Origin: Labrys monachus
Lineage (GTDB): Bacteria > Pseudomonadota > Alphaproteobacteria > Rhizobiales > Labraceae
Direction of reading: 5' to 3'
DNA length: 64,000 nt
Assembly: GCF_030814655.1 (NCBI RefSeq)
Contig: NZ_JAUSVK010000001.1
Coordinates: forward strand, 3,367,501-3,431,500
Program-made: the position numbers and the translations under genes
Shown: piece by piece, positions 4,251 to 63,397 of the stretch
Layout: the number at the start of each line of letters is the position of its first letter
Numbering within the stretch: the stretch's first letter is position 1
The notes under the pieces: generated by a model
The model's input: the letters and a program-made list of their open reading frames with translations, nothing else
Database searches by the model: none
What the model was told of the DNA's origin: nothing

Positions 4251-4446
4251 CTGGAAAATGGCATTGTCAACAGGCTGCGAATGATTTCCCCGACGCGCTG
4301 CCGGCGACGCTCCGCCCTCATGCGGGCGCGCCGGCGGGCAGCCTTTCTCGCCTTGTTTTCGGTCTTGACCACGGAATGACCGAAGCGCAGGCACAAGCCG
4401 TGCCGCCCCGAAATGTGCGGCGTTCGCGATTCAAAGGATCGTCCGC

Positions 4447-5061
4447 ATGATGCCGGACGGATGGAAGGGCGTATCGATGGGTGGCGACGACCGGCAGGCG
4501 GGCTCGACCGATTCGCGCGAAATATCGCTGGACAATCGGCTGTGGCACTTCGCGCTCGACTTCTACGGCCGCGAGGGCGTTGCCCCCGCCTGCCTCGCGC
4601 TGCAGGACGGGCTCGGGGTCGACGTCAACATCCTGCTCCTCGCCGTCTTTGCACAGATCCGGCATGGCGCGGCGCTCGGGCCGAGGGACCTCGCCGCGGC
4701 CGACGCCCTCGTCCGCGACTGGCGGACGGGCGTCGTGCACGCCCTGCGGCGGCTGCGCCTCCAGCTCAAATCCGGTCCGGACCCCGCGCCGTCGCCGCTG
4801 ACGGACGGGCTGCGGAGCGAGATCAAGGCCGCGGAACTGCGATCCGAACAGATCGAGATCGCCCTGCTGTCCGCCTGGCTCGACCGGACGCAGCCCCGGC
4901 CCGATGACGGCGCGCCCGCTGCCGAAACGGTACCCGCTGCCGTCGCACGCCATTTCGCACCGGATGCCGCGGCCCTTCAGGCGCCGGCGATCGCCGAAGC
5001 CCTGGAGGTGCTGCGCCGGGCCATCCGGCAGGCCGGCGGCGATCGGCCGACGGTGCCGTGA
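4447..5061 (+). CDS. TIGR02444/DUF2390 family protein, function unknown
   Basis: A 204-residue soluble protein. Residues 30-60 carry the family hallmark, an aromatic/Leu-rich helix leading into REGVAPACLALQDGLGVDVN, which I recognise as TIGR02444 (DUF2390). The rest is helical and charged, with an Ala/Pro-rich linker near residue 150. No catalytic motif is visible and the family has no established function. The ATG at 4447 is eight bases from AAGGA; a second in-frame ATG at 4477 is possible. The gene stands alone between the divergent importer A promoter and the convergent cupin gene, so context says little about its role. Confidence 0.8.
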   Translation: MMPDGWKGVSMGGDDRQAGSTDSREISLDNRLWHFALDFYGREGVAPACLALQDGLGVDVNILLLAVFAQIRHGAALGPRDLAAADALVRDWRTGVVHALRRLRLQLKSGPDPAPSPLTDGLRSEIKAAELRSEQIEIALLSAWLDRTQPRPDDGAPAAETVPAAVARHFAPDAAALQAPAIAEALEVLRRAIRQAGGDRPTVP

Positions 5062-53515: not shown

Positions 53516-54685
53516 CTATTCCCGGCCGACCGCGAGCCGTTCCGGCGAGGTCGGTGCGCCGCCGACCATCTCATAGGCCTGCGCGACGTTCCCGGCCGTC
53601 ACCCCGAGGCCCGGCAGCACGATCCAGGGCGGCACGGCGTGGCCGCAGAGGGACGCGACGGCGGCCGTCGCGGCCGCCCTTCCCTGCTCGTAGGGACGCT
53701 GGGCAGCGACGCCCTTGACGATACGGCCGGCGGCCAGCGCCGCCGCCACGCCGGCGCCGAGATCGACGGTCGTCATCACCGGCCGCCGCGGCCTGCCCTC
53801 GAGGACGGCGAGCGATTCCACCGCCGGCTCGTCCCAGACGACGAAGAGACCGTCGAGGCCGGGATGCCGGTCGAGATGCGGCGCGATCACGGCCCCGGCC
53901 TCCGACGGCCTCTCGAACTTCAGCTGGCTCAGCGCGACGTCGGGCCGCTCGCGCCGCATCCATCGATTGAAGGCGATCTCGCGCTGCGCGGTCGCGAAGA
54001 AATCGAGCTTGTAGGCGAGGACGCAGACCGCCCCGCCCTGGGGAACATGGGGTGACAGGAGGCCGGCGGCGATCTGGCCCAGGCCGAAATTGTCGCAGGA
54101 GACGACGGTGACGTAATCCATCTCGGGCAGGAGGCCGGAGGGCGCGTTGTCGAGCAGGATGAGCCGGATGCCGGCCGACGACACCTTGCGGAAGGCCTGC
54201 GCAACGGCGGCACCGGCGACGGGGATGCTGATCACCGCATCGGGCCGCCGGCGGATGACCCGCTCGATGGCCGCCACCTGGGTCGACGCATCGTAGGAGC
54301 AGCCAACGACGTCGTCGACGACTGCGCCGACCCGGCGCAGTTCCGCCTCGATCCCGGCGATCTGCCGGCGGGACCAGTCCGACGTTATGGTGTGAAGCAC
54401 GATGGAAACCCGCAGCCCGCCCGTCCGGGCGCGCGCCAGGGCTTCCGGCGACAGGTCGATCTGGTCCGGCGTGGCCGGCCGTTCGCCATGCGGACCGAGG
54501 CCGGCGACCGCTGGGGCCTGCTGCGCGGACGGGCTTTCCCCGGCGAAAGGCGATGGCGCCGGCCCGTCCCTGCCCTTGTCCTGCATGCTGTTCCGCCCCG
54601 TGCTGGCTGCGTTCTGTGCGACAGCCTCGGCCGCAAGCCTAGAGGACACCTCGATCCTTGGGAATGCATGCGCGGCCAAGGTCAT
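53516..54685 (-). CDS. Leaderless sugar-binding protein, paralogue of importer D binding protein
   Basis: A 389-residue protein with a type-1 sugar-binding fold from about residue 85 on, but no signal peptide. The first 80 residues are Ala/Pro/Gly-rich and polar. Blocks match the importer D binding protein (57194-58315) one by one: SDWSRRQIAG/NDWSQAQIEG, LDFFATAQR/ADFFVTRQR, VVWDEPA/AVWDVPA, AAQRPYEQG/SAQRPYDQG. Its ATG overlaps the ROK gene stop as ATGA, so the two are made together. A cytosolic copy of a binding protein tied to a repressor suggests an intracellular sensor or ligand buffer. It could also be a decaying duplicate, though the frame is intact. Confidence 0.85.
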   Translation of the reverse strand: MTLAAHAFPRIEVSSRLAAEAVAQNAASTGRNSMQDKGRDGPAPSPFAGESPSAQQAPAVAGLGPHGERPATPDQIDLSPEALARARTGGLRVSIVLHTITSDWSRRQIAGIEAELRRVGAVVDDVVGCSYDASTQVAAIERVIRRRPDAVISIPVAGAAVAQAFRKVSSAGIRLILLDNAPSGLLPEMDYVTVVSCDNFGLGQIAAGLLSPHVPQGGAVCVLAYKLDFFATAQREIAFNRWMRRERPDVALSQLKFERPSEAGAVIAPHLDRHPGLDGLFVVWDEPAVESLAVLEGRPRRPVMTTVDLGAGVAAALAAGRIVKGVAAQRPYEQGRAAATAAVASLCGHAVPPWIVLPGLGVTAGNVAQAYEMVGGAPTSPERLAVGRE

Positions 54686-56139
54686 CTCGGCGCGCCGATC
54701 GGGAAGGTCCGCGCGGACGGCGCCGGCCCCGTTCTCCCGCTCCCTGCCGTCAAGGCTTTTCGCGCCGCCTCGAGGAGGCGGAGGACGTCGGGATGCGCCA
54801 GGGGGGAGCCGGCGGTGATCCACCCCTCCATGAAGGCCGGCGCGAAGATCTCCTCCGCCACCACCTTGGTGGCGCCGGCCAACCCGGAGGAGCGGCCCAT
54901 GCGGGATCGCACGATGCCGAGATCGCGCGTCAGCAAGGGTTGCGAGTGGCGATAGATGCCTTCGCGGATGGCGGCGATGCAGATGTCGCCGGTCAGCGCC
55001 AGTTCGCCGCCGACGACGACCATTGAGGGGTTGAGCAGGTTCACCAGCGTCGCCAGCACGGTGCCGACGAGGCGGCCGCATCGCGCCAGGAGATCGGCCG
55101 AGAACGGGTCCCCGAGGCGGGCGGCGGTGCCGATATCGGCCACCGTGATGCCGCCATTGCGTTCGAGGATGTCGGCGAGCGCGCGGCTATGTCCCCGGCG
55201 GGCGGCCTGCAGGCCCTGTACGACCACCGCCTCGCAGCCGGCCACCGTTTCCAGGCAGCCCGTATTGCCGCAGCCGCAGATCGCCATATGGCCCTCGCCG
55301 GCATAGACGTGACCGATCTGGCCGGCAGTCCCCTGCCCCCCGCGATGCAGACGACCGTTGGAGACGACGCCGGCGCTGATCTCGGTGCCAAGATCCACGA
55401 ACACCATGTCGCGGCCGAGCTCCGGCGCCACGGTGCCGAGCTCGCCCATGGTCTCCATCTGCACCGCGCCCCGCACCCAGGCGGGCACGCCGAAGCGACA
55501 GACGAGACGCTCGATCAGCCGCGCGCTCTCCCATTCGGGCGTCGCGCCCAGCCTGGGGATCGCCAGCGGCGGCCCCTCCTGGGATTCGACCGGGCCGGGA
55601 ATGCCGAGGCCGATGCCCCACAGATCGGGCATGCCGACCTGGTCCAGGAGCCAGCTGAAGAGCTGCTCCAGCCGCTCGAACAGCGCATCGGCGGAAATGG
55701 CGAGATCGATATCCTCGTAATGCTCGGTGATCAGCCTGCCGCCCAGGTCGGCCAGGCCGACGCCGATCGTGCCGCGATGGATGTTGGCGACCAGGAGCCT
55801 GCCCGCCTCCGCACGGAAGCGCAGGAGGCGCGGGGCGCGGCCGCCGATCGAGCGCCCGACGCCGCCTTCGTCGACCAGGCCGAAACGGGCGAGCGTCGCC
55901 AGCCGGTCGGCGACGACCGCACGCCCCAGCCGCGCCTCGCGTTCGAGGTCGAGCCGGGTGGCCGCCTCCGCCTTGCGCAGGATGTCGAGGAGGGCCGCCA
56001 GGCTCTGCCGCTCGGATTCCAGGGCGCGAACGCGATCGGTCGTGCCGGAGACCGCCGGGCCCGCATCGTCCGGCGCGCGCCGACCGATACGCAGCCCGCT
56101 TCGCAACTCCGCTTTCGCCACGGTGAATCCGCCTTTCAT
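54682..56139 (-). CDS. ROK-family transcriptional repressor
   Basis: A 485-residue regulator of the NagC/XylR type, longer than the usual 400. The N-terminal winged helix (about 40-100) reads LLDILRKAEAATRLDLEREA. The ROK domain has VFVDLGTEISAGVVSNG for phosphate and sugar binding and a zinc motif GHMAICGCGNTGCLET with three of the four usual ligands as Cys. The ATG at 56139 has a weak site; a GTG at 56121 with AAGGCGG seven bases before it is a real alternative. Divergent from the isomerase-importer D operon, with an inverted repeat at 56210-56234 between, and coupled to the leaderless binding protein gene. Confidence 0.87.
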   Translation of the reverse strand: MKGGFTVAKAELRSGLRIGRRAPDDAGPAVSGTTDRVRALESERQSLAALLDILRKAEAATRLDLEREARLGRAVVADRLATLARFGLVDEGGVGRSIGGRAPRLLRFRAEAGRLLVANIHRGTIGVGLADLGGRLITEHYEDIDLAISADALFERLEQLFSWLLDQVGMPDLWGIGLGIPGPVESQEGPPLAIPRLGATPEWESARLIERLVCRFGVPAWVRGAVQMETMGELGTVAPELGRDMVFVDLGTEISAGVVSNGRLHRGGQGTAGQIGHVYAGEGHMAICGCGNTGCLETVAGCEAVVVQGLQAARRGHSRALADILERNGGITVADIGTAARLGDPFSADLLARCGRLVGTVLATLVNLLNPSMVVVGGELALTGDICIAAIREGIYRHSQPLLTRDLGIVRSRMGRSSGLAGATKVVAEEIFAPAFMEGWITAGSPLAHPDVLRLLEAARKALTAGSGRTGPAPSARTFPIGAPR

Positions 56140-56209
56140 CCGCGTCCCGACGAGACGGCGCGGACTATAACGCAAGGTTTCGCAGGTGCAAAAATGCCGA
56201 TCTGCGTTG

Positions 56210-56234
56210 ACTTATGTTTTTTACCAACATAAGT
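56210..56234. promoter_or_regulatory. Operator-promoter of the importer D operon
   Basis: ACTTATGTT and AACATAAGT form a perfect 9-bp inverted repeat with a 7-bp spacer. A TTGACT hexamer (56207-56212) overlaps its left arm and a possible -10 lies in the right arm, so binding of the ROK repressor would block this promoter. The AT-rich ATAA/TTAT arms suit ROK operators. Confidence 0.6.
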
Positions 56235-56287: not shown

Positions 56288-57127
56288 ATGGCCCGGTGGA
56301 AATTGGCCTATCATGCCAATTGTTGGGGTCCCCTCGGCGGCGACGCCGTCGGCGTGACCTCGATCACGCGATTGGCCTACCGCACCTTCGGCGACATGGA
56401 GAAGGCGGCCCGCGAGATCGCCGAGGCCGGCTATGAAGGCATCGAATTCTTCGACGGCAATGTGGTGGACGGCGAAGGCGACGGCTATGCCGCCATGCGC
56501 CGCGTTCTCGACCGGAGCGGGCTGAGGCTCGTGGCGCTGTACAGCGGCTGCAATTTCATCTTTGCCGATATCCTGCCCGAGGAACTCGCGCGCGTCACCC
56601 GAGCCGCCGCAGCGGCCGAGGCGCTGGGCGCCGAACATCTCGTGGTCGGTGGCGGCGCGCGGCGCTTCGACGGCACCCGGCCGGGCGATTACGACGCGCT
56701 CGCCGCAGGCCTCGACGAGGTCATGGCGATCGCCCAGGCGCACGGCCTCGCCGCCCATTATCACCCGCATCTGTCCACCATCGTCGAGACTCCCGACGAG
56801 GTCCGCACCATCTTCGCCAAGACCGGCATCGGCTTTTGTCCCGACACCGCCCATCTGGCCGCGGCCGGCGGCGATGTCGCCGCCATGGTTCGCGAGCACG
56901 CCGCCCGCATCTCCTATGTCCACCTGAAGGGCTGGCAGCGCGAGCCGTTCGCCTTCACGCCCGTCGGCCTCGGCGACTGCGACAATGGCGCGGTGATCCG
57001 GGCGCTCAGGGATGTCGGCTACGAGGGATGGATCTGCAACGAACTCGACAGCTGGCCCGATCCGGCCGGGGCGGCACGCCAGAGCCGGGCCTTCGTCGAA
57101 GTCGAGGCGATGAAAACTGATCCGTAA
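56288..57127 (+). CDS. Sugar phosphate isomerase/epimerase (AP endonuclease 2-like TIM barrel)
   Basis: A 279-residue TIM-barrel protein of the IolE/inosose dehydratase-hydroxypyruvate isomerase superfamily. Metal-site landmarks are EIAEAGYEGIEFFDG (Glu), AHYHPHLSTIVET (His), FCPDTAHLAAAG (Asp and His), ISYVHLKGW (His) and ICNELDSW (late Glu). Such enzymes isomerise, epimerise or dehydrate sugars, including 3-keto-sugars. The ATG at 56288 follows GAGGAAGGGA; the upstream frame overlaps the operator. First gene of the operon with importer D and a GMC dehydrogenase, so it probably acts on the imported or oxidised sugar. Confidence 0.88.
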   Translation: MARWKLAYHANCWGPLGGDAVGVTSITRLAYRTFGDMEKAAREIAEAGYEGIEFFDGNVVDGEGDGYAAMRRVLDRSGLRLVALYSGCNFIFADILPEELARVTRAAAAAEALGAEHLVVGGGARRFDGTRPGDYDALAAGLDEVMAIAQAHGLAAHYHPHLSTIVETPDEVRTIFAKTGIGFCPDTAHLAAAGGDVAAMVREHAARISYVHLKGWQREPFAFTPVGLGDCDNGAVIRALRDVGYEGWICNELDSWPDPAGAARQSRAFVEVEAMKTDP

Positions 57128-57193: not shown

Positions 57194-58315
57194 ATGCGGA
57201 TATCCGCACTGCTTCACGGCACGGCGTTCTGCCTGGCACTGGGCGCCGGCCTCGCCGCCACGACGGCGCAGGCCTTCGATTCCCAGGCCGCCATCGACAA
57301 TATCGGCAAGAGCGTCATGAGCCTCGGCCCGAACGGTGAAAAGCCGGAATCGGCATCGGTGGTCAAGCTCAGCGACGATGAACTGGCCAAGATCAAGGCC
57401 ATGCACGCCAAGGCCGCCATCGTCATGCATTATGCCGGCAATGACTGGTCGCAGGCCCAGATCGAAGGGCTGAAGGCCCAGTTCGACAAGATGGGCATCG
57501 AGGTGATCGCCACCACGGATGCCGGCTTCAAGCCGGACAAGCAGGTATCGGACATCGAGACGGTGCTGGCGCAGAAGCCTAACATCATCGTCTCGATCCC
57601 GACCGATCCGGTCGCCACCGCCAACGAATACAAAGCCGCGGCCGCGGCCGGCGTCAAGCTCGTCTTCATGGACAACGTGCCGAAGGATTTCGTCGCCGGG
57701 AAGGACTATGTCAGCGTCGTCTCCGCCGACAATTACGGCAACGGCGTCGCCACCGCCCATCTCCTGGCGCAGGCCCTCGGCGGCAAGGGCGACGTCGGCG
57801 TCGTCTTCCATGCCGCCGACTTCTTCGTCACCAGGCAGCGCTACGACGCCATGAAGAAGACGCTCGCCGAGGACTATCCCGATATCCACATCGTCGCCGA
57901 GCAGGGCATCGGCGGCCCGGACTTTTCGGGCGATGCCGAGAAGGCCGCCGGCGCGATGCTGGTGTCGCATCGCAGCATCAAGGGCATCTGGGCCGTCTGG
58001 GACGTGCCCGCCGAAGGCGTGATCGCCGCCGCGGCGACCAATGGCCGGGACGACCTCGTGGTGACCAATTGCGACCTCGGCGAGAATGTCGCGATCAATA
58101 TGGCCAGCGACGGCGTCATCAAGGGCCTGTCGGCCCAGCGTCCCTACGACCAGGGCGTGACCGAGGCTTTGCTGGCGGGATACGGCCTTCTCGGCAAGCA
58201 GGCCCCCGCCTATGTGGCGTTGCCGGCGCTTCCGGTGACCAAGGCCAACCTCGCCGACGCCTGGCAGCAGGTCTACCACAAGCCCGTCACCGACAAGATC
58301 AAGAAGAGCATGTGA
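57194..58315 (+). CDS. Sugar ABC transporter substrate-binding protein (importer D)
   Basis: A 373-residue exported protein. Signal peptide MRISALLHGTAFCLALGAG ending near TAQA, then a 45-residue leader-like segment before the type-1 binding fold (AAIVMHYAGNDWSQAQI). Likely ligand contacts include DWS, FMDNVP, DFFVTRQR, WDVPAEG and AQRPYDQG. These blocks are conserved in the leaderless paralogue at 53516-54685. GGGAG precedes the ATG. The ATPase gene follows after a gap holding a two-hairpin repeat (58347-58419), which may protect this part of the message. Confidence 0.92.
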   Translation: MRISALLHGTAFCLALGAGLAATTAQAFDSQAAIDNIGKSVMSLGPNGEKPESASVVKLSDDELAKIKAMHAKAAIVMHYAGNDWSQAQIEGLKAQFDKMGIEVIATTDAGFKPDKQVSDIETVLAQKPNIIVSIPTDPVATANEYKAAAAAGVKLVFMDNVPKDFVAGKDYVSVVSADNYGNGVATAHLLAQALGGKGDVGVVFHAADFFVTRQRYDAMKKTLAEDYPDIHIVAEQGIGGPDFSGDAEKAAGAMLVSHRSIKGIWAVWDVPAEGVIAAAATNGRDDLVVTNCDLGENVAINMASDGVIKGLSAQRPYDQGVTEALLAGYGLLGKQAPAYVALPALPVTKANLADAWQQVYHKPVTDKIKKSM

Positions 58316-58473: not shown

Positions 58474-60033
58474 ATGGTTCCCGCTCCCGAAGCCGTCCGC
58501 ATGACGAATGTCAGCAAGCATTTCGACGCCGTGCGGGCGCTCGACGGGGTGAGCCTCGAAGTCAGGGCCGGCGAGATCCATGCCCTGCTCGGCGAGAACG
58601 GGGCCGGCAAGTCGACCATCCTGAAAATCCTGCGCGGCGTGCAGCCTCCGAGCGCGGGCACCGTCGAGATCGACGGCGTCCGGCTCGCAGCCTTCACGCC
58701 GGAGGCCTCGCGTGCGGCCGGCGTCGCCATGGCCTTCCAGGAAATGAGCCTGGTGCCGACGCTCACCGTCGCCCAGAACGTCTTCCTCGAACGCGAGATC
58801 AAGACCGCTTCCGGCCTCATCGACGACAAGGCGGCGATCGCCGAGACGCGGAAACTCTTCGCCGCCATGGGCGTCGCCATCGATCCCGCCCTGAAGGTCG
58901 CCGACATCCCGGCCGGCCAGCGCCAGCTCACCGAGATCGTCAAGGCGACATCCCAGCCCTGCAAGGTGCTCGTGCTGGACGAGCCGACATCCGCGCTCTC
59001 GTCGAACGAAGTTGACCGGCTGTTCCATTATGTCCGGCACTTGCGCGAACGGGGCGTGGCCGTGATCTATGTCTCCCACCGCATGGACGAGATCTTCCGC
59101 ATCGCCGACCGCGCCACCATCCTGCGCGACGGCCGGCACATCGTCACCGCCCCCCTCGCCGATTTCACCCTCGAATCGATGATCGCCCATATCATCGGGC
59201 GGCGCTCGCGCGGGTTCTCGGAGGCCACGCGCGACACCGGCAAGCGAGGCGAGATCCTGCTGGAGGCGCGCGGCCTCTCCGGCCGCTTCAAGCCGGCCGG
59301 CGTCGACCTCTCCCTGCATCGCGGCGAGGTCGTGGGGGTGGCCGGGCTGCTGGGCAGCGGGCGTTCGTCGCTCGCGCGCCTGCTCTGCGGCATCGAGCCG
59401 GCGGTGTCGGGCGAGATTCGCGTCAGGGGCGCGCCGGTATCGATTGCCGGTCCGCAGGACGCCATCCGGGCGGGTATCGCCCTGGTGCCGGAAGACCGCG
59501 CCCGCCAGGGCTTCGTCGCCTTCCACTCGGTGGAGGCCAATATCGCCCTGCCCAACCTCGGCCGCCTGTCGCGGAGAGGCTGGATCGACCGCCGCCGCTC
59601 CGCCCGCCTGGCCGAGGGCTCGATCGGGCGCCTGCGCATCAAGGCCGCCTGCCGCGAGGCGCCGGTGTCGAGCCTTTCCGGCGGCAACGCCCAGAAGGTG
59701 GTGATCGCCAAATGGCTCGCCGCCGACCCGGACATCCTGATCCTCGACGAACCCACCGCCGGCATCGACATCGGCTCCAAATCGGAGATCGTGGCGCTGA
59801 TCCGCGACCTCGCCCGCACCGGCAAGGCGGTGCTGGTGATATCGTCGGAACTGCAGGAACTGCTCGCCGCCTGCGACCGCATCCTGGTGATGTCGGACGG
59901 GCGCATCCTGCGCGACATCGCGCGGGCCGCCCTCGACGATCCCGCGACGGCGGGGACGTCCGACGCTCTCCTCCACGCCGAGCAGAGATTGAACGAAGCC
60001 ATGCAGCAGGCCCGGGGAGGATACGAACCATGA
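58474..60033 (+). CDS. Sugar ABC transporter ATP-binding protein (importer D)
   Basis: A 519-residue RbsA-type double ATPase. Domain 1: GENGAGKST, PAGQRQLTEIVKA, VLVLDEPT. Domain 2: AGLLGSGRSSLARLL, LSGGNAQKVVIA (Ala where siblings have Gln), LILDEPTAGIDIGSK. The start is uncertain: the frame is open far upstream through the repeat element, and neither ATG 58474 nor ATG 58501 (which begins right at MTNVSKHFDAV) has a clear ribosome site. I give 58474. The stop overlaps the permease start as ATGA. Confidence 0.88.
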   Translation: MVPAPEAVRMTNVSKHFDAVRALDGVSLEVRAGEIHALLGENGAGKSTILKILRGVQPPSAGTVEIDGVRLAAFTPEASRAAGVAMAFQEMSLVPTLTVAQNVFLEREIKTASGLIDDKAAIAETRKLFAAMGVAIDPALKVADIPAGQRQLTEIVKATSQPCKVLVLDEPTSALSSNEVDRLFHYVRHLRERGVAVIYVSHRMDEIFRIADRATILRDGRHIVTAPLADFTLESMIAHIIGRRSRGFSEATRDTGKRGEILLEARGLSGRFKPAGVDLSLHRGEVVGVAGLLGSGRSSLARLLCGIEPAVSGEIRVRGAPVSIAGPQDAIRAGIALVPEDRARQGFVAFHSVEANIALPNLGRLSRRGWIDRRRSARLAEGSIGRLRIKAACREAPVSSLSGGNAQKVVIAKWLAADPDILILDEPTAGIDIGSKSEIVALIRDLARTGKAVLVISSELQELLAACDRILVMSDGRILRDIARAALDDPATAGTSDALLHAEQRLNEAMQQARGGYEP

Positions 60034-60998
60034 CCGAAACGGGGCTGGGCGCACGCAAGATGCCATCGGCGCTGCGCAACTGGCGCGATTTCATCATCTA
60101 TATCGGCTTCGTCGCGATCTTCGTCATCTTCGCGGCGACGCTCGGGGAGCGCGGCTTCCTCGATCCGAACAACCTGCTCAACATCGTCAGGCAGAGCGCC
60201 ATCATCGCGGTGATGGCGGTTTCGATGACCTTCGTGCTCGGCACGGCCGAGATCGACCTGTCGGTCGGCGCGGTCGCCGGCCTCGCCTCCGTCGCCACCG
60301 CCATCGGCATCGACCATTACGGCCTGCCGGGCGGGATTGCCTGCGGCCTCGGTACCGGGCTGATCGTCGGCGCCGCCAATGGCTGGCTGACCACCGGCCT
60401 CGGCATCCCCTCCTTCCTCACCACCCTCGCGATGATGGGGATCGCCCGCGGCGTCGCGATGTGGATCAGCGGCACCGCCGCCATCCCCATCCTCGACAAG
60501 ACCTTTGCGGCGATCTTCGGCGGCGGCAATCTCGGTCCGGTCCCGAGCCTGCTGATCTGGATGGCGCTGCTCGGCCTCGCCGGCCATGTCGCGCTGCGGC
60601 GCACGACCTTCGGGCGCCGCGTGCTGGCCACCGGCGGCAACGAGACCTCGGCCCGCTATTCCGGCGTCGACACCGCCGCGGTGAAGTTCCGTGTGCTGAT
60701 GCTCTCCAGCCTGGCGGCGGCGCTGGCGGGCATGCTCTATGCCGGCCGCCTCCATTCCGGGCGCTTCCAGTTCGGCGAAGGCGACGAACTCTCGGTGATC
60801 GCGGCCGCGGTCCTCGGCGGCTCCAGCCTGTTCGGCGGCACGGCCACCGTGGTCGGCTCCGTCATGGGCGCGCTGATGATCGGCCTCATCAACAACGGTC
60901 TCGTGCTCATGGGCCTCGAATTCAGCCAGCAGCTCATCGCGCGCGGGGCCATCATCATCGTCGCGGTGGCGATGAGCCAGACGCGCCGGCGGCGTTAG
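60030..60998 (+). CDS. Sugar ABC transporter permease (importer D)
   Basis: A 322-residue RbsC-family membrane protein with about nine hydrophobic segments. Conserved loops are GTAEIDLSVGAVAGLA and GGSSLFGGTATVVGS. The ATG overlaps the ATPase stop (ATGA) and has GGAGG nine bases upstream, inside the ATPase gene. Only permease of importer D. The dehydrogenase genes follow after 112 bp on the same strand. Confidence 0.94.
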   Translation: MTETGLGARKMPSALRNWRDFIIYIGFVAIFVIFAATLGERGFLDPNNLLNIVRQSAIIAVMAVSMTFVLGTAEIDLSVGAVAGLASVATAIGIDHYGLPGGIACGLGTGLIVGAANGWLTTGLGIPSFLTTLAMMGIARGVAMWISGTAAIPILDKTFAAIFGGGNLGPVPSLLIWMALLGLAGHVALRRTTFGRRVLATGGNETSARYSGVDTAAVKFRVLMLSSLAAALAGMLYAGRLHSGRFQFGEGDELSVIAAAVLGGSSLFGGTATVVGSVMGALMIGLINNGLVLMGLEFSQQLIARGAIIIVAVAMSQTRRRR

Positions 60999-61110
60999 GG
61001 CGATGCGTCCGAGCGGGCCGGCCTTCCGCCCCGCCCGCGAGGGCACGACGCATCATGCGCCTCAGCCTGAGCTCCTCCCGCTCCAGCACTCCCGTATCAA
61101 GGACGACTTC

Positions 61111-61743
61111 ATGCCCGATACTTTCTTCGATGCGCATCAGCGCGCCACCGTCGAGGCGGCGATGGCGCGGATCATCCCGACCGACGACACCCCCGGCGCC
61201 CGCGAGGCCGGCTGCATCGATTTCCTCGAACGCTACCTGTCGGGGCTCGGCTACATCTTCGCCAAGCCCGACGGCTCGGGCTTCGAGACCCTCGAAGGCC
61301 GCAGCGCCGAAGCCTGGATGCGGCGCGTGACGATCATGCGCCAGACCTATCGCTCCGGCATCGAAGAACTCGATGCCCGCGCCCGCGCGATGGACGGCGT
61401 CGATTTCATCGCCCTGCCGCCGGAGCGCCAGGATGCGGTGCTGCGCGCCATCGAGACGTCCGGCGGCGACGATGCGCCGTCCGCGCCGGCGGACCAGCCC
61501 GCTTTGCAGCAGACCTCGACCGAGGTCGAGCTGCCCTTCCTGCCGCTGCTCGTCACCCATACGCGCCAGGGCTTCTATGCGGATCCGATCTATGGCGGCA
61601 ACCGCAACCAGGCCGGCTGGAAGACCATCGGCTTTCCCGGTCCGGCCTCGCTCGCCGAGGTGCATGCCGGGCGCTACACCACGCTGCCCTATTTTGCCGA
61701 CGGCGAGGCCGAGAAAGTGAAGGAGTTCCACGATGGCCTCTGA
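61111..61743 (+). CDS. Gluconate 2-dehydrogenase subunit 3 family protein
   Basis: A 210-residue small subunit of a GMC flavoprotein dehydrogenase. Family marks are ARIIPTDDTPGAREAGCIDFL near the start and a C-terminal GFYADPIYGGNRNQAGWKTIG followed by GFPGPA. Related subunits carry a Tat signal that exports the complex; none is visible here (MPDTFFDAHQRA), so this pair may stay in the cytoplasm. The ATG at 61111 is seven bases from AAGGA. It overlaps the flavoprotein gene by 11 bp. Confidence 0.88.
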   Translation: MPDTFFDAHQRATVEAAMARIIPTDDTPGAREAGCIDFLERYLSGLGYIFAKPDGSGFETLEGRSAEAWMRRVTIMRQTYRSGIEELDARARAMDGVDFIALPPERQDAVLRAIETSGGDDAPSAPADQPALQQTSTEVELPFLPLLVTHTRQGFYADPIYGGNRNQAGWKTIGFPGPASLAEVHAGRYTTLPYFADGEAEKVKEFHDGL

Positions 61744-63397
61744 GCGGCGCATGTCCAAGCCGGCGCGAACCGACGCCGTCATCATCGGTGCGGGCGCCTC
61801 GGGCGCTGCCGCAGCCAAGGTGCTGTGCGAGGCCGGCGTCAAGGTCGTCGCCCTCGAAAAGGGCCCCTGGCGCCGGAAGGAATCCTTTGGCGGCGACGAA
61901 CTCGCCAATATCAACCGCTACAGTCTGTGGCCCGATCCGCTGCTCAATCCCCGCACCTGGCGCCGGGACACCTCGGACGAGGCCCGGGTCGACCTGTTCT
62001 GCCCGGTGCCGCAGATGGTGGGCGGCGGCACCGTCCACTGGCAGGGCTGGCTGCCGCGCTTCACGCCGGACGATTTCCGCATGCGCACCGTGGCGGGCGA
62101 CCTGCCGGGCGCCACCCTCGCCGACTGGCCCATCACCTATGACGAGCTCGAGCCCTATTATCTGAAGGTCGAATGGGCCTTCGGCGTGTCCGGCCAGGCC
62201 GGTGCCAACCGGTTCGAGGGGCCGCGATCGGGCGGCTATCCCTGCCCGCCCATGCCGATGTCCCGCTACGCCCAGAAATTCCACCAGGGCTGCGCGGCCT
62301 TGGGCTGGAACGCCTTCCCGACCCCGCAGGCCGCCCTCTCCCGCCCCTTCAACGGCCGCCGCGCCACGGTTGTGAGCGCCTTCGCCCAGCAGCACGGCGA
62401 CCCGACCGGCACGCGCTCCTCCGCGCTCAACGTGTTCGTGCCCGACGCCGTCGCGACCGGCAATTACGACCTGCGGCCTGATTCCTATGTGCGGGAACTG
62501 GTGCTCGACGGCCAGGGCAATATCAGGGCCGCCGTCTATGAGGATGCGCAGGGCGAGACCTTCGAGCAGGAGGCCGACATCTTCATCTTGGCCTGCGGCG
62601 CGGTGGAGACGGCGCGGCTGCTGCTGCTGTCGCGGTCCGGCCGCTTCCCCAACGGCCTCGCCAACGGCAGCGACCTCGTCGGCCGCAACGCGACGTTCCA
62701 CGAATATTCGGCCGCCGTCGGCACCTATGACGACCCGGTCTATGCCTGGGCCGGGGGCGGCTATGTCAGCGCCTCGACGTTCCAGCATTACGGCCACGAC
62801 GAGTCCCGCGGTTTCGTCAGCGGCAGCCATGTTGCCGTCGCGGGCGTCGGCATCCCCCTGCCGATCAACTGGCACCTTCCGGGCGCGCCGTCCTGGGGCG
62901 CCGAGGCCAAGAAGATCGACCGCGACTATTTCAGCCATTCGCTCGCCGTGGCGATGGTGCTGCACGACATGCCGCAGCACGACAACCGCGTCGACCTCGA
63001 CGACGAGGTCGTCGACGCCTGGGGCCTGCCGGTGGCGCGGGTGACGCTGAAGCCGCACAGGAACGATCTCGACCAGGGCCGCTACCTCATCGACCGCGGC
63101 GCCGACATCCTCCAGGCCAGCGGAGCCAAGGGCATCACCAAGGTCTATGCCGATCGCGTCACCGGCAACTGCTCCCACCAGCACGGCACGGCGCGGATGG
63201 GCAAGGATCCCGACGCGTCCGTTCTCGACCGGTGGTGCCGGGCGCACGAGGTCGCCAATCTCTACGCCGTCGACGGCTCCCCCTTCCCGACCGGCACCGG
63301 CGCCAATCCGACGCTCACCATCATGGCGAATGCCTGGCGCGTCGCCGACAGGATCATCGCCGAGCGTGGCCGCGCGCGCACGGCGCCGGAGCGATAG
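61733..63397 (+). CDS. GMC-family FAD-dependent sugar dehydrogenase
   Basis: A 554-residue flavoprotein. FAD-binding motif AVIIGAGASGAAAAKVL (about 15-31), LEKGPWRR after strand 2, GGGTVHWQGW in the GMC signature region, and the catalytic end with CSHQHGTARMG (His) and GANPTLTIMANAWR (Asn). It belongs with the gluconate/2-keto-gluconate and glucoside 3-dehydrogenase large subunits. With subunit 3 and a sugar isomerase in the same gene run it may make 3-keto-glycosides. AAGGAG lies seven bases before the ATG. No third cytochrome c subunit gene is found in the window. Confidence 0.9.
   Translation: MASERRMSKPARTDAVIIGAGASGAAAAKVLCEAGVKVVALEKGPWRRKESFGGDELANINRYSLWPDPLLNPRTWRRDTSDEARVDLFCPVPQMVGGGTVHWQGWLPRFTPDDFRMRTVAGDLPGATLADWPITYDELEPYYLKVEWAFGVSGQAGANRFEGPRSGGYPCPPMPMSRYAQKFHQGCAALGWNAFPTPQAALSRPFNGRRATVVSAFAQQHGDPTGTRSSALNVFVPDAVATGNYDLRPDSYVRELVLDGQGNIRAAVYEDAQGETFEQEADIFILACGAVETARLLLLSRSGRFPNGLANGSDLVGRNATFHEYSAAVGTYDDPVYAWAGGGYVSASTFQHYGHDESRGFVSGSHVAVAGVGIPLPINWHLPGAPSWGAEAKKIDRDYFSHSLAVAMVLHDMPQHDNRVDLDDEVVDAWGLPVARVTLKPHRNDLDQGRYLIDRGADILQASGAKGITKVYADRVTGNCSHQHGTARMGKDPDASVLDRWCRAHEVANLYAVDGSPFPTGTGANPTLTIMANAWRVADRIIAERGRARTAPER

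Follow-up and report, generated by a model that had tools for sequence, protein, structure and literature searches.

The window (64,000 nucleotides of Labrys monachus, contig NZ_JAUSVK010000001.1, positions 3,367,501 to 3,431,500) carries, on its reverse strand, a gene for a sugar-binding protein without an export leader (leaderless sugar-binding protein, LSBP) behind the gene of a ROK-family regulator; a divergent operon with the genes of a sugar importer (importer D) and of putative oxidation enzymes is read on the forward strand, and a palindrome lies between the two (Table 1). The TGA stop codon of the ROK gene (54684–54682) overlaps a possible ATG start of LSBP (ATGA), and the short intergenic distances suggest that both genes are placed on one transcript. 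The pair is treated below as a candidate split sensor, in which the binding protein and the regulator would divide the sensing of a sugar between them.

Table 1. Features of the locus (positions of the window).
Feature	Position	Strand	Details
LSBP (leaderless sugar-binding protein), Peripla_BP_4	53516..54685	-	389 aa reading; alternative start ATG 54586
ROK-family regulator, winged-helix N-terminus	54682..56139	-	PF00480, 1.3e-37; start approximate
Perfect palindrome, predicted ROK operator	56210..56234	.	9-base arms, 7-base spacer; between divergent operons
Xylose-isomerase-like TIM-barrel protein	56288..57127	+	PF01261, 1.8e-33; first gene of divergent operon; homologues in relatives
Exported sugar-binding protein of divergent importer (importer D)	57194..58315	+	signal peptide
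Sugar ABC transporter ATPase	58474..60033	+	PF00005, 1.7e-51; start approximate
ABC transporter permease	60030..60998	+	PF02653, 3.1e-34
Gluconate 2-dehydrogenase subunit 3-like protein	61096..61743	+	PF13618, 2e-30; start approximate
GMC-family FAD oxidoreductase	61733..63397	+	PF05199, 1.4e-25

Conservation of the pair: the search was made with the binding protein alone; out of 100 genomes, that of the window and those of four relatives had LSBP at E ≤ 1e-50, and the second match in all five was the divergent gene, whose binding protein is 33–37% identical. Genome contigs were then scanned with the five aligned LSBPs, and the best 80 of 146 relatives (from Hyphomicrobiales, Rhodobacterales, Acidisoma, other Alphaproteobacteria and one Vibrio) were used. 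Together with the five they gave 85 rows and, with two doubles removed (L021 = L043, L022 = L099), 83 distinct loci; the sets of 85 rows, doubles included, were used for the neighbours of D type, the pocket residues, the substitution rates, the operator and the fusion check. A ROK gene was found directly upstream of LSBP, on the same strand, in 83/83 distinct loci. When the ROK protein was the query, matches at E ≤ 1e-90 came from 5 of 100 genomes, exactly those that have LSBP; class-wide, three of 385 genomes had LSBP at E ≤ 1e-65, namely that of the window and G386 and G407, both of which also have the ROK gene. The ROK gene also stood beside LSBP in 3/3 plasmid copies inspected, of 13 close plasmid records. 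Of the ROK proteins not accompanied by an LSBP, the nearest (G004:C1:1352879, 38% identity) has both the catalytic Asp and the Zn motif of the family. Recurrence of the arrangement in every distinct locus makes it more than chance; the pair is old and conserved, and the absence of conserved pairing, named in the preliminary description as a refutation, was not observed.

Fold and start of LSBP: PF13407 (Peripla_BP_4, 7.6e-32) is the sole Pfam domain of the window protein and was found in 37/37 aligned family members; the structure model (mean predicted local distance difference test score, pLDDT, 88.8) matches solved ribose-type sugar-binding proteins. The motif GLGPHGER occupies residues 62–69 of the 389-residue reading, and the 61 residues ahead of it are unconserved. 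An ATG stands exactly four codons ahead of the motif in 60/83 distinct loci, the window not being among them; here ATG 54586 is found 28 codons ahead. In 27/83 loci there is a start codon that overlaps the ROK stop, and the ROK stop lies at most 75 bases ahead of the motif in 63/83 (median over all 83, 26). The start on the ROK stop codon, given in the preliminary description, is thus present as ATGA (54685); judged from the unconserved N-terminus, ATG 54586 appears at least as likely. ROK frames that pass the motif start in another frame were seen at four loci (L032, L063, L080 and L081; by 49–151 bases in the last three), and either true overlap or sequence error (frameshift) may be the cause. 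The long ROK frame of L032 was rejected as a ROK/LSBP fusion on account of its other frame, and a 764-residue paralogue frame was rejected as a ROK fusion, because the frame simply stays open upstream of an exported, signal-bearing protein.

Export signal: leaders were scored by hydropathy alone (14-residue stretch, mean Kyte–Doolittle hydropathy ≥1.6), LSBPs being given the longest N-terminus allowed by in-frame starts within 70 codons. A signal-like stretch was found in 0/83 LSBPs (46 too short for one; highest value 1.54) and in 70/73 exported neighbours (remaining three, 1.43–1.58); the highest mean in the window is 0.59 for the N-terminus of LSBP vs 1.81 for the exported protein. Many relatives have an LSBP that begins approximately where the mature exported protein begins (GLGPHGER vs SLGPNGEK). 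The description of LSBP as a type-1 sugar-binding fold without an export signal was therefore upheld, also when alternative starts were allowed, and the protein is presumably located in the cytosol. That it is exported by another route or from an unrecognised start, to serve the importer as an additional binding protein, is very improbable: the N-terminal GPxGE segment and the pocket of the mature exported proteins are indeed kept, and the hydropathy cut is not sharp, as the overlapping values above indicate, but 38/83 loci have at most 25 open residues ahead of the motif, signal-like stretches are lacking throughout the 83, and the leaderless group differs from the exported one at many positions that are fixed in the latter.

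Pocket residues: the blocks DWS, DFFxTxQR, VWDxP and AQRPYxQG, earlier pointed out as likely ligand contacts common to LSBP and the exported protein of importer D, were found in both. The comparison covered 85 leaderless and 75 exported rows (389-residue numbering; distinct loci give the same list), LSBP being aligned with solved ribose-binding proteins for the pocket assignment. At least 95% identical in both groups were H98, D103, W104, N180, F229, R235, W284, D285, D308 and Q329, among others; D179 was found in 98% of the leaderless and 87% of the exported group. Several of the shared residues stand at or beside positions which we take to be the sugar contacts of ribose-binding proteins, and LSBP thus appears to keep the pocket residues of the exported protein. 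Many further positions are fixed in one of the groups but not shared with the other; T99, C129, R142, F200, L202, W242, R247, F257 and F281, among others, are fixed in the leaderless group only and could mark the contact with the ROK protein.

Selection and rates: the ratio of nonsynonymous to synonymous substitution rates (dN/dS; Nei–Gojobori, 60 random of 248 eligible pairs) had medians of 0.117 (LSBP), 0.098 (ROK) and 0.055 (exported protein). Selection on LSBP is therefore purifying and not relaxed. A decaying, functionless duplicate kept by chance would agree with the faster divergence of LSBP relative to the exported protein; the idea is contradicted by a dN/dS far below 1 and close to that of ROK, by the intact pocket and by the ROK gene beside every LSBP, and can be given next to no credence. 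The divergence of LSBP (48 dereplicated loci of the 73 with all three genes) correlates with that of ROK with r 0.934 (partial 0.835 given the exported protein), and with that of the exported protein with r 0.771 (partial 0.203 given ROK).

Ancestry: LSBP and the exported protein of the same locus are 28–38% identical (median 34%, 75 rows). Two trees (58 and 44 rows, with 35 and 23 of the 85 leaderless rows; roots at midpoints) placed the leaderless proteins in one clade (support 100/99), apart from the clade of D-type exported proteins. The leaderless clade adjoins the exported proteins of L136, L038 and L041 and an Agrobacterium rubi plasmid protein (support 98/97 in the first tree, for L136 and A. 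rubi; 99/99 in the second, for all); in L038 and L041 the exported protein divergent from the pair is of this other type. The earlier suggestion that LSBP is a duplicate of the binding protein of importer D was rejected on the separate clades and the low identity; LSBP forms a separate old lineage in both trees. It is likely to descend from the older exported type, the binding protein of the importer having been replaced later in most lineages.

The ROK regulator: the structure model (mean pLDDT 85.8) matches 1z05, Mlc and Lmo0178. The N-terminal helix-turn-helix is present (alignment to Mlc from residue 49 on), with R55, R62, E66 and G72 R73 A74 invariant among 36 aligned rows. The ROK signature, as outlined in a passage of PMC5458393, comprises a nucleotide motif, a strictly conserved catalytic Asp, the sugar-contacting ExGH and a Zn motif. 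The window protein has VRGAVQMETMGE at the position of xND in others, so that Ala replaces the catalytic and sugar-contacting Asp; QIGH is found instead of ExGH; the Zn motif CxCGxxGCxE is retained. None of 80 scorable paired ROK proteins has the Asp (Ser 50, Ala 12, Gly 12, Arg 3, others 3), and none of 81 has the acid of ExGH (Leu 54, Met 15, Gln 11, Gly 1); L051, L062 and L083 are gapped at Asp, L051 and L062 at ExGH. The 39 other ROK proteins used for comparison were taken from the same and related genomes (regulators and kinases mixed, hand-picked and not random; no close leaderless homologue adjoining, as judged from the homology searches); Asp was found in 32, E or D of ExGH in 31, the first Zn Cys in 27/39, and none was without both acidic residues. 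Clustering at 80% identity left 35 paired against 35 other proteins (29 with Asp, 27 with E/D, none without both). The window protein thus has the ROK fold but is not taken to be a canonical sugar-sensing ROK, and the paired ROK proteins seem to have lost their own sugar pocket.

The altered pocket can also be read in another way: the ROK protein would sense a different effector (e.g. a keto- or phosphosugar from the operon), and LSBP, making no contact with it, would buffer the sugar and set the threshold of induction, as the preliminary description had offered for one of two roles. The pocket is altered and not deleted (the glycine of ExGH is kept in 83/83 scorable paired rows, and the fold is predicted to be intact), and buffering needs ligand binding alone, the pocket residues of LSBP being kept. 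A new specificity, however, would be expected to show one conserved polar set, and Asp and the acid of ExGH are replaced variably (mostly by Ser, Gly or Ala, and by Leu, Met or Gln, respectively); moreover, the altered ROK pocket, the strict linkage and the ROK-specific correlation of rates are all left unexplained by buffering. We consider it unlikely.

Operator: a palindrome of the consensus aCTTTTGCtgtTaAacaGCAAAAGt was found between the ROK and TIM-barrel genes at a score ≥8 in 75/78 rows (0.25 expected from shuffles) and at a score ≥10 in 73/78; usable intergenic regions were available for 78 of the 85 rows (7 without), 76 of them distinct. The copy at 56210–56234 is the only palindrome match in the window (≤3 mismatches; 0 matches in 100 shuffles). 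Judged from the conserved palindrome and its perfect copy in the window, the ROK protein probably acts as a local regulator on the divergent operon, and perhaps also on itself. Canonical ROK operators have T-rich and A-rich ends according to an excerpt of PMC4856308, a likeness to the palindrome described here.

Split sensor: LSBP is proposed, with a probability of about two in three, to sense the sugar for a ROK protein no longer able to do so. We infer the following steps, from location and operator binding to ligand, contact and sign, from the sequences. The ROK protein would bind the palindrome between its own and the divergent importer/oxidation operon and would repress at least the latter; its own pocket would no longer work in the usual ROK manner; the sugar, or an early intracellular product of it, would be bound by LSBP in the cytosol; closing of LSBP on the ligand would alter its contact with the ROK protein and thereby release repression or, with the opposite sign, establish it. 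Either the liganded sensor would pull the ROK protein off the DNA, or the empty sensor would hold it there. The partner role suggested earlier for LSBP is thus retained (pairing, lack of a leader, purifying selection, divergence tracking that of ROK, loss of the ROK sugar residues), and it is favoured above all because the canonical sugar residues are lost in exactly these ROK proteins; presentation in the sense of handing the sugar over to the repressor is unlikely, because the latter seems to be without the usual site for taking it.

Several points weigh against the split sensor. The paired ROK proteins may all come from one event, so that the rows are not independent tests; the His of ExGH is kept in 29/81 scorable paired proteins (the site is altered, not gone), the first Zn Cys in 18/83, the window's included, and among the 39 other ROK proteins 7 are without Asp and 8 without E/D of ExGH. 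Most of the studied ROK regulators bind DNA independently of an effector, as stated in part of PMC4856308, and a pocketless ROK protein need therefore not have a separate sensor. Genes that are neighbours and moved together would also yield correlated divergence, which can contribute to the values above; the exported protein belongs to the other operon and covers a smaller range (mean distance 0.23 vs 0.46). A single seed was the starting point of the operator matrix; near relatives are present in the hold-out halves (38, 36 and 36 of 39 at a score ≥10), and matrices trained on shuffled regions gave 5–11 of 78 at ≥10, a sign of some freedom in the procedure, yet far below the number observed. 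An in-frame ROK/LSBP fusion was found in 0/85 rows.

It is rather probable that the pairs represent a new class of split one-component regulator, in which the ROK protein would no longer bind sugar and would serve solely as DNA-binding and switching subunit, with LSBP as obligate cytosolic sensor. The class would be spread over Alphaproteobacteria, with one case in Vibrio; its members are found both on chromosomes and on plasmids, and the pathways beside them are similar to 3-keto-glycoside routes.

Surroundings of the pair: a D-type exported gene (>55% identity, >250 aa, other strand) was found on the opposite strand in 75/85 rows; the other 10 include L038 and L041 (another type), L067, L040 (no exported binding protein found) and others near contig ends. 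Similar clusters of a TIM-barrel and an exported protein without LSBP were found in Klebsiella (LacI-family regulator) and Deinococcus (LuxR-type regulator nearby). The TIM-barrel gene accompanies the pair even in L038, L041 and L040, as would be expected if LSBP were a cytosolic carrier that delivers the imported sugar to the oxidoreductases or the TIM-barrel enzyme and owes its place behind the ROK gene to operon history. Such a carrier is quite improbable: in most loci (the same 75/85 rows) LSBP lies behind the regulator and is read in the direction opposite to the enzyme genes, its sequence divergence follows that of ROK, and the Klebsiella and Deinococcus clusters exist without it.

Known systems: the closest known design to the proposed split sensor is AmiC–AmiR of the amidase operon of Pseudomonas aeruginosa, with a ligand-binding protein and a regulator in one operon. 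AmiC is a cytosolic protein with a periplasmic-binding fold, of a binding-protein family other than that of LSBP. AmiC-type pairs share with LSBP–ROK the leaderless binding-fold protein beside a regulator on the same strand; AmiR, however, is an ANTAR RNA-binding antiterminator and the ligand is an amide, whereas the partner here is a ROK DNA-binding repressor, and LSBP–ROK is not a member of this system but only a possible analogue. Binding of acetamide to AmiC frees AmiR, as described in parts of PMC5259723 and PMC3369936. A ROK repressor with a protein partner is represented by Mlc of E. coli (solved Mlc/EIIB complex, 3bp8), which keeps Asp, Glu and His of ExGH and the Zn cysteines; the window protein is without Asp and the Glu of ExGH. 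The partner EIIB is a part of the glucose permease of the phosphotransferase system and not a sugar-binding protein. NagC, XylR and Lmo0178 combine, as here, a winged helix with a ROK fold and serve local sugar operons. NagC and XylR bind their effector in the ROK domain; Lmo0178 was solved with its inducer (5f7r), the effector likewise lying in the ROK domain, and these pocket residues are lost in the paired ROK proteins. A periplasmic-binding-type domain serves as a cytosolic sugar sensor in the LacI/RbsR family; in these repressors sensor and DNA-binding domain form one polypeptide, whereas LSBP, with PF13407 only, would be a separate protein acting via the ROK protein. The levoglucosan cluster of Bacillus smithii has a LacI-family regulator, according to an excerpt of PMC7676230. 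ABC-type binding proteins are described as sensors of a regulator in a section of PMC3043104 (LevQ/LevT with LevRS of Streptococcus mutans); the sugar-binding part of LevQ lies outside the cytoplasm and acts via a membrane histidine kinase, unlike the proposed cytosolic LSBP. No ROK regulator with a binding-protein partner was described among the matches listed in open-licence PubMed Central, which agrees with the preliminary description but does not prove that none exists.

In the usual view, a sugar repressor contains its own sensor. In the pair described here, sensing seems to be divided between a repressor devoid of the customary sugar residues and a binding protein that stands free, so that exchange or mutation of the partner alone could change the specificity. 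If this is true, the pair represents a natural plug-in design of a sensor (a binding protein and one repressor), an explanation is obtained for a set of proteins annotated as 'substrate-binding domain-containing' but probably without a role in transport, and the manner in which a partner switches a ROK fold becomes testable.

Neighbouring genes and minor observations: the GMC-family oxidoreductase of the window likely serves sugar oxidation, and at L105 the neighbours are annotated likewise (gluconate 2-dehydrogenase subunit 3-like protein and GMC-family FAD oxidoreductase). Across the loci, genes of TIM-barrel proteins and of Gfo/Idh/MocA or GMC oxidoreductases were found near the pair. They resemble those of oxidation/elimination (3-keto-glycoside) routes, for which the glycoside and levoglucosan pathways outlined in parts of PMC10628242 and PMC7676230 were used for comparison; glycosides or anhydrosugars as candidate ligands may be regarded as a lead only. 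At L067 the importer genes are located downstream of the LSBP gene on the same strand, the module being rearranged yet kept. On the Klebsiella plasmid NZ_CP063938.1 (L138) the regulator of the comparable sugar cluster is of the LacI family, no ROK or LSBP gene being found nearby; a short annotated 'substrate-binding domain' gene and a second TIM-barrel fragment (4530–4784 and 4252–4518) look like remnants. A genome of the same genus (G004) gave 35 ROK matches vs 12 in the genome of the window and 1 to 3 in many other genomes of the order.

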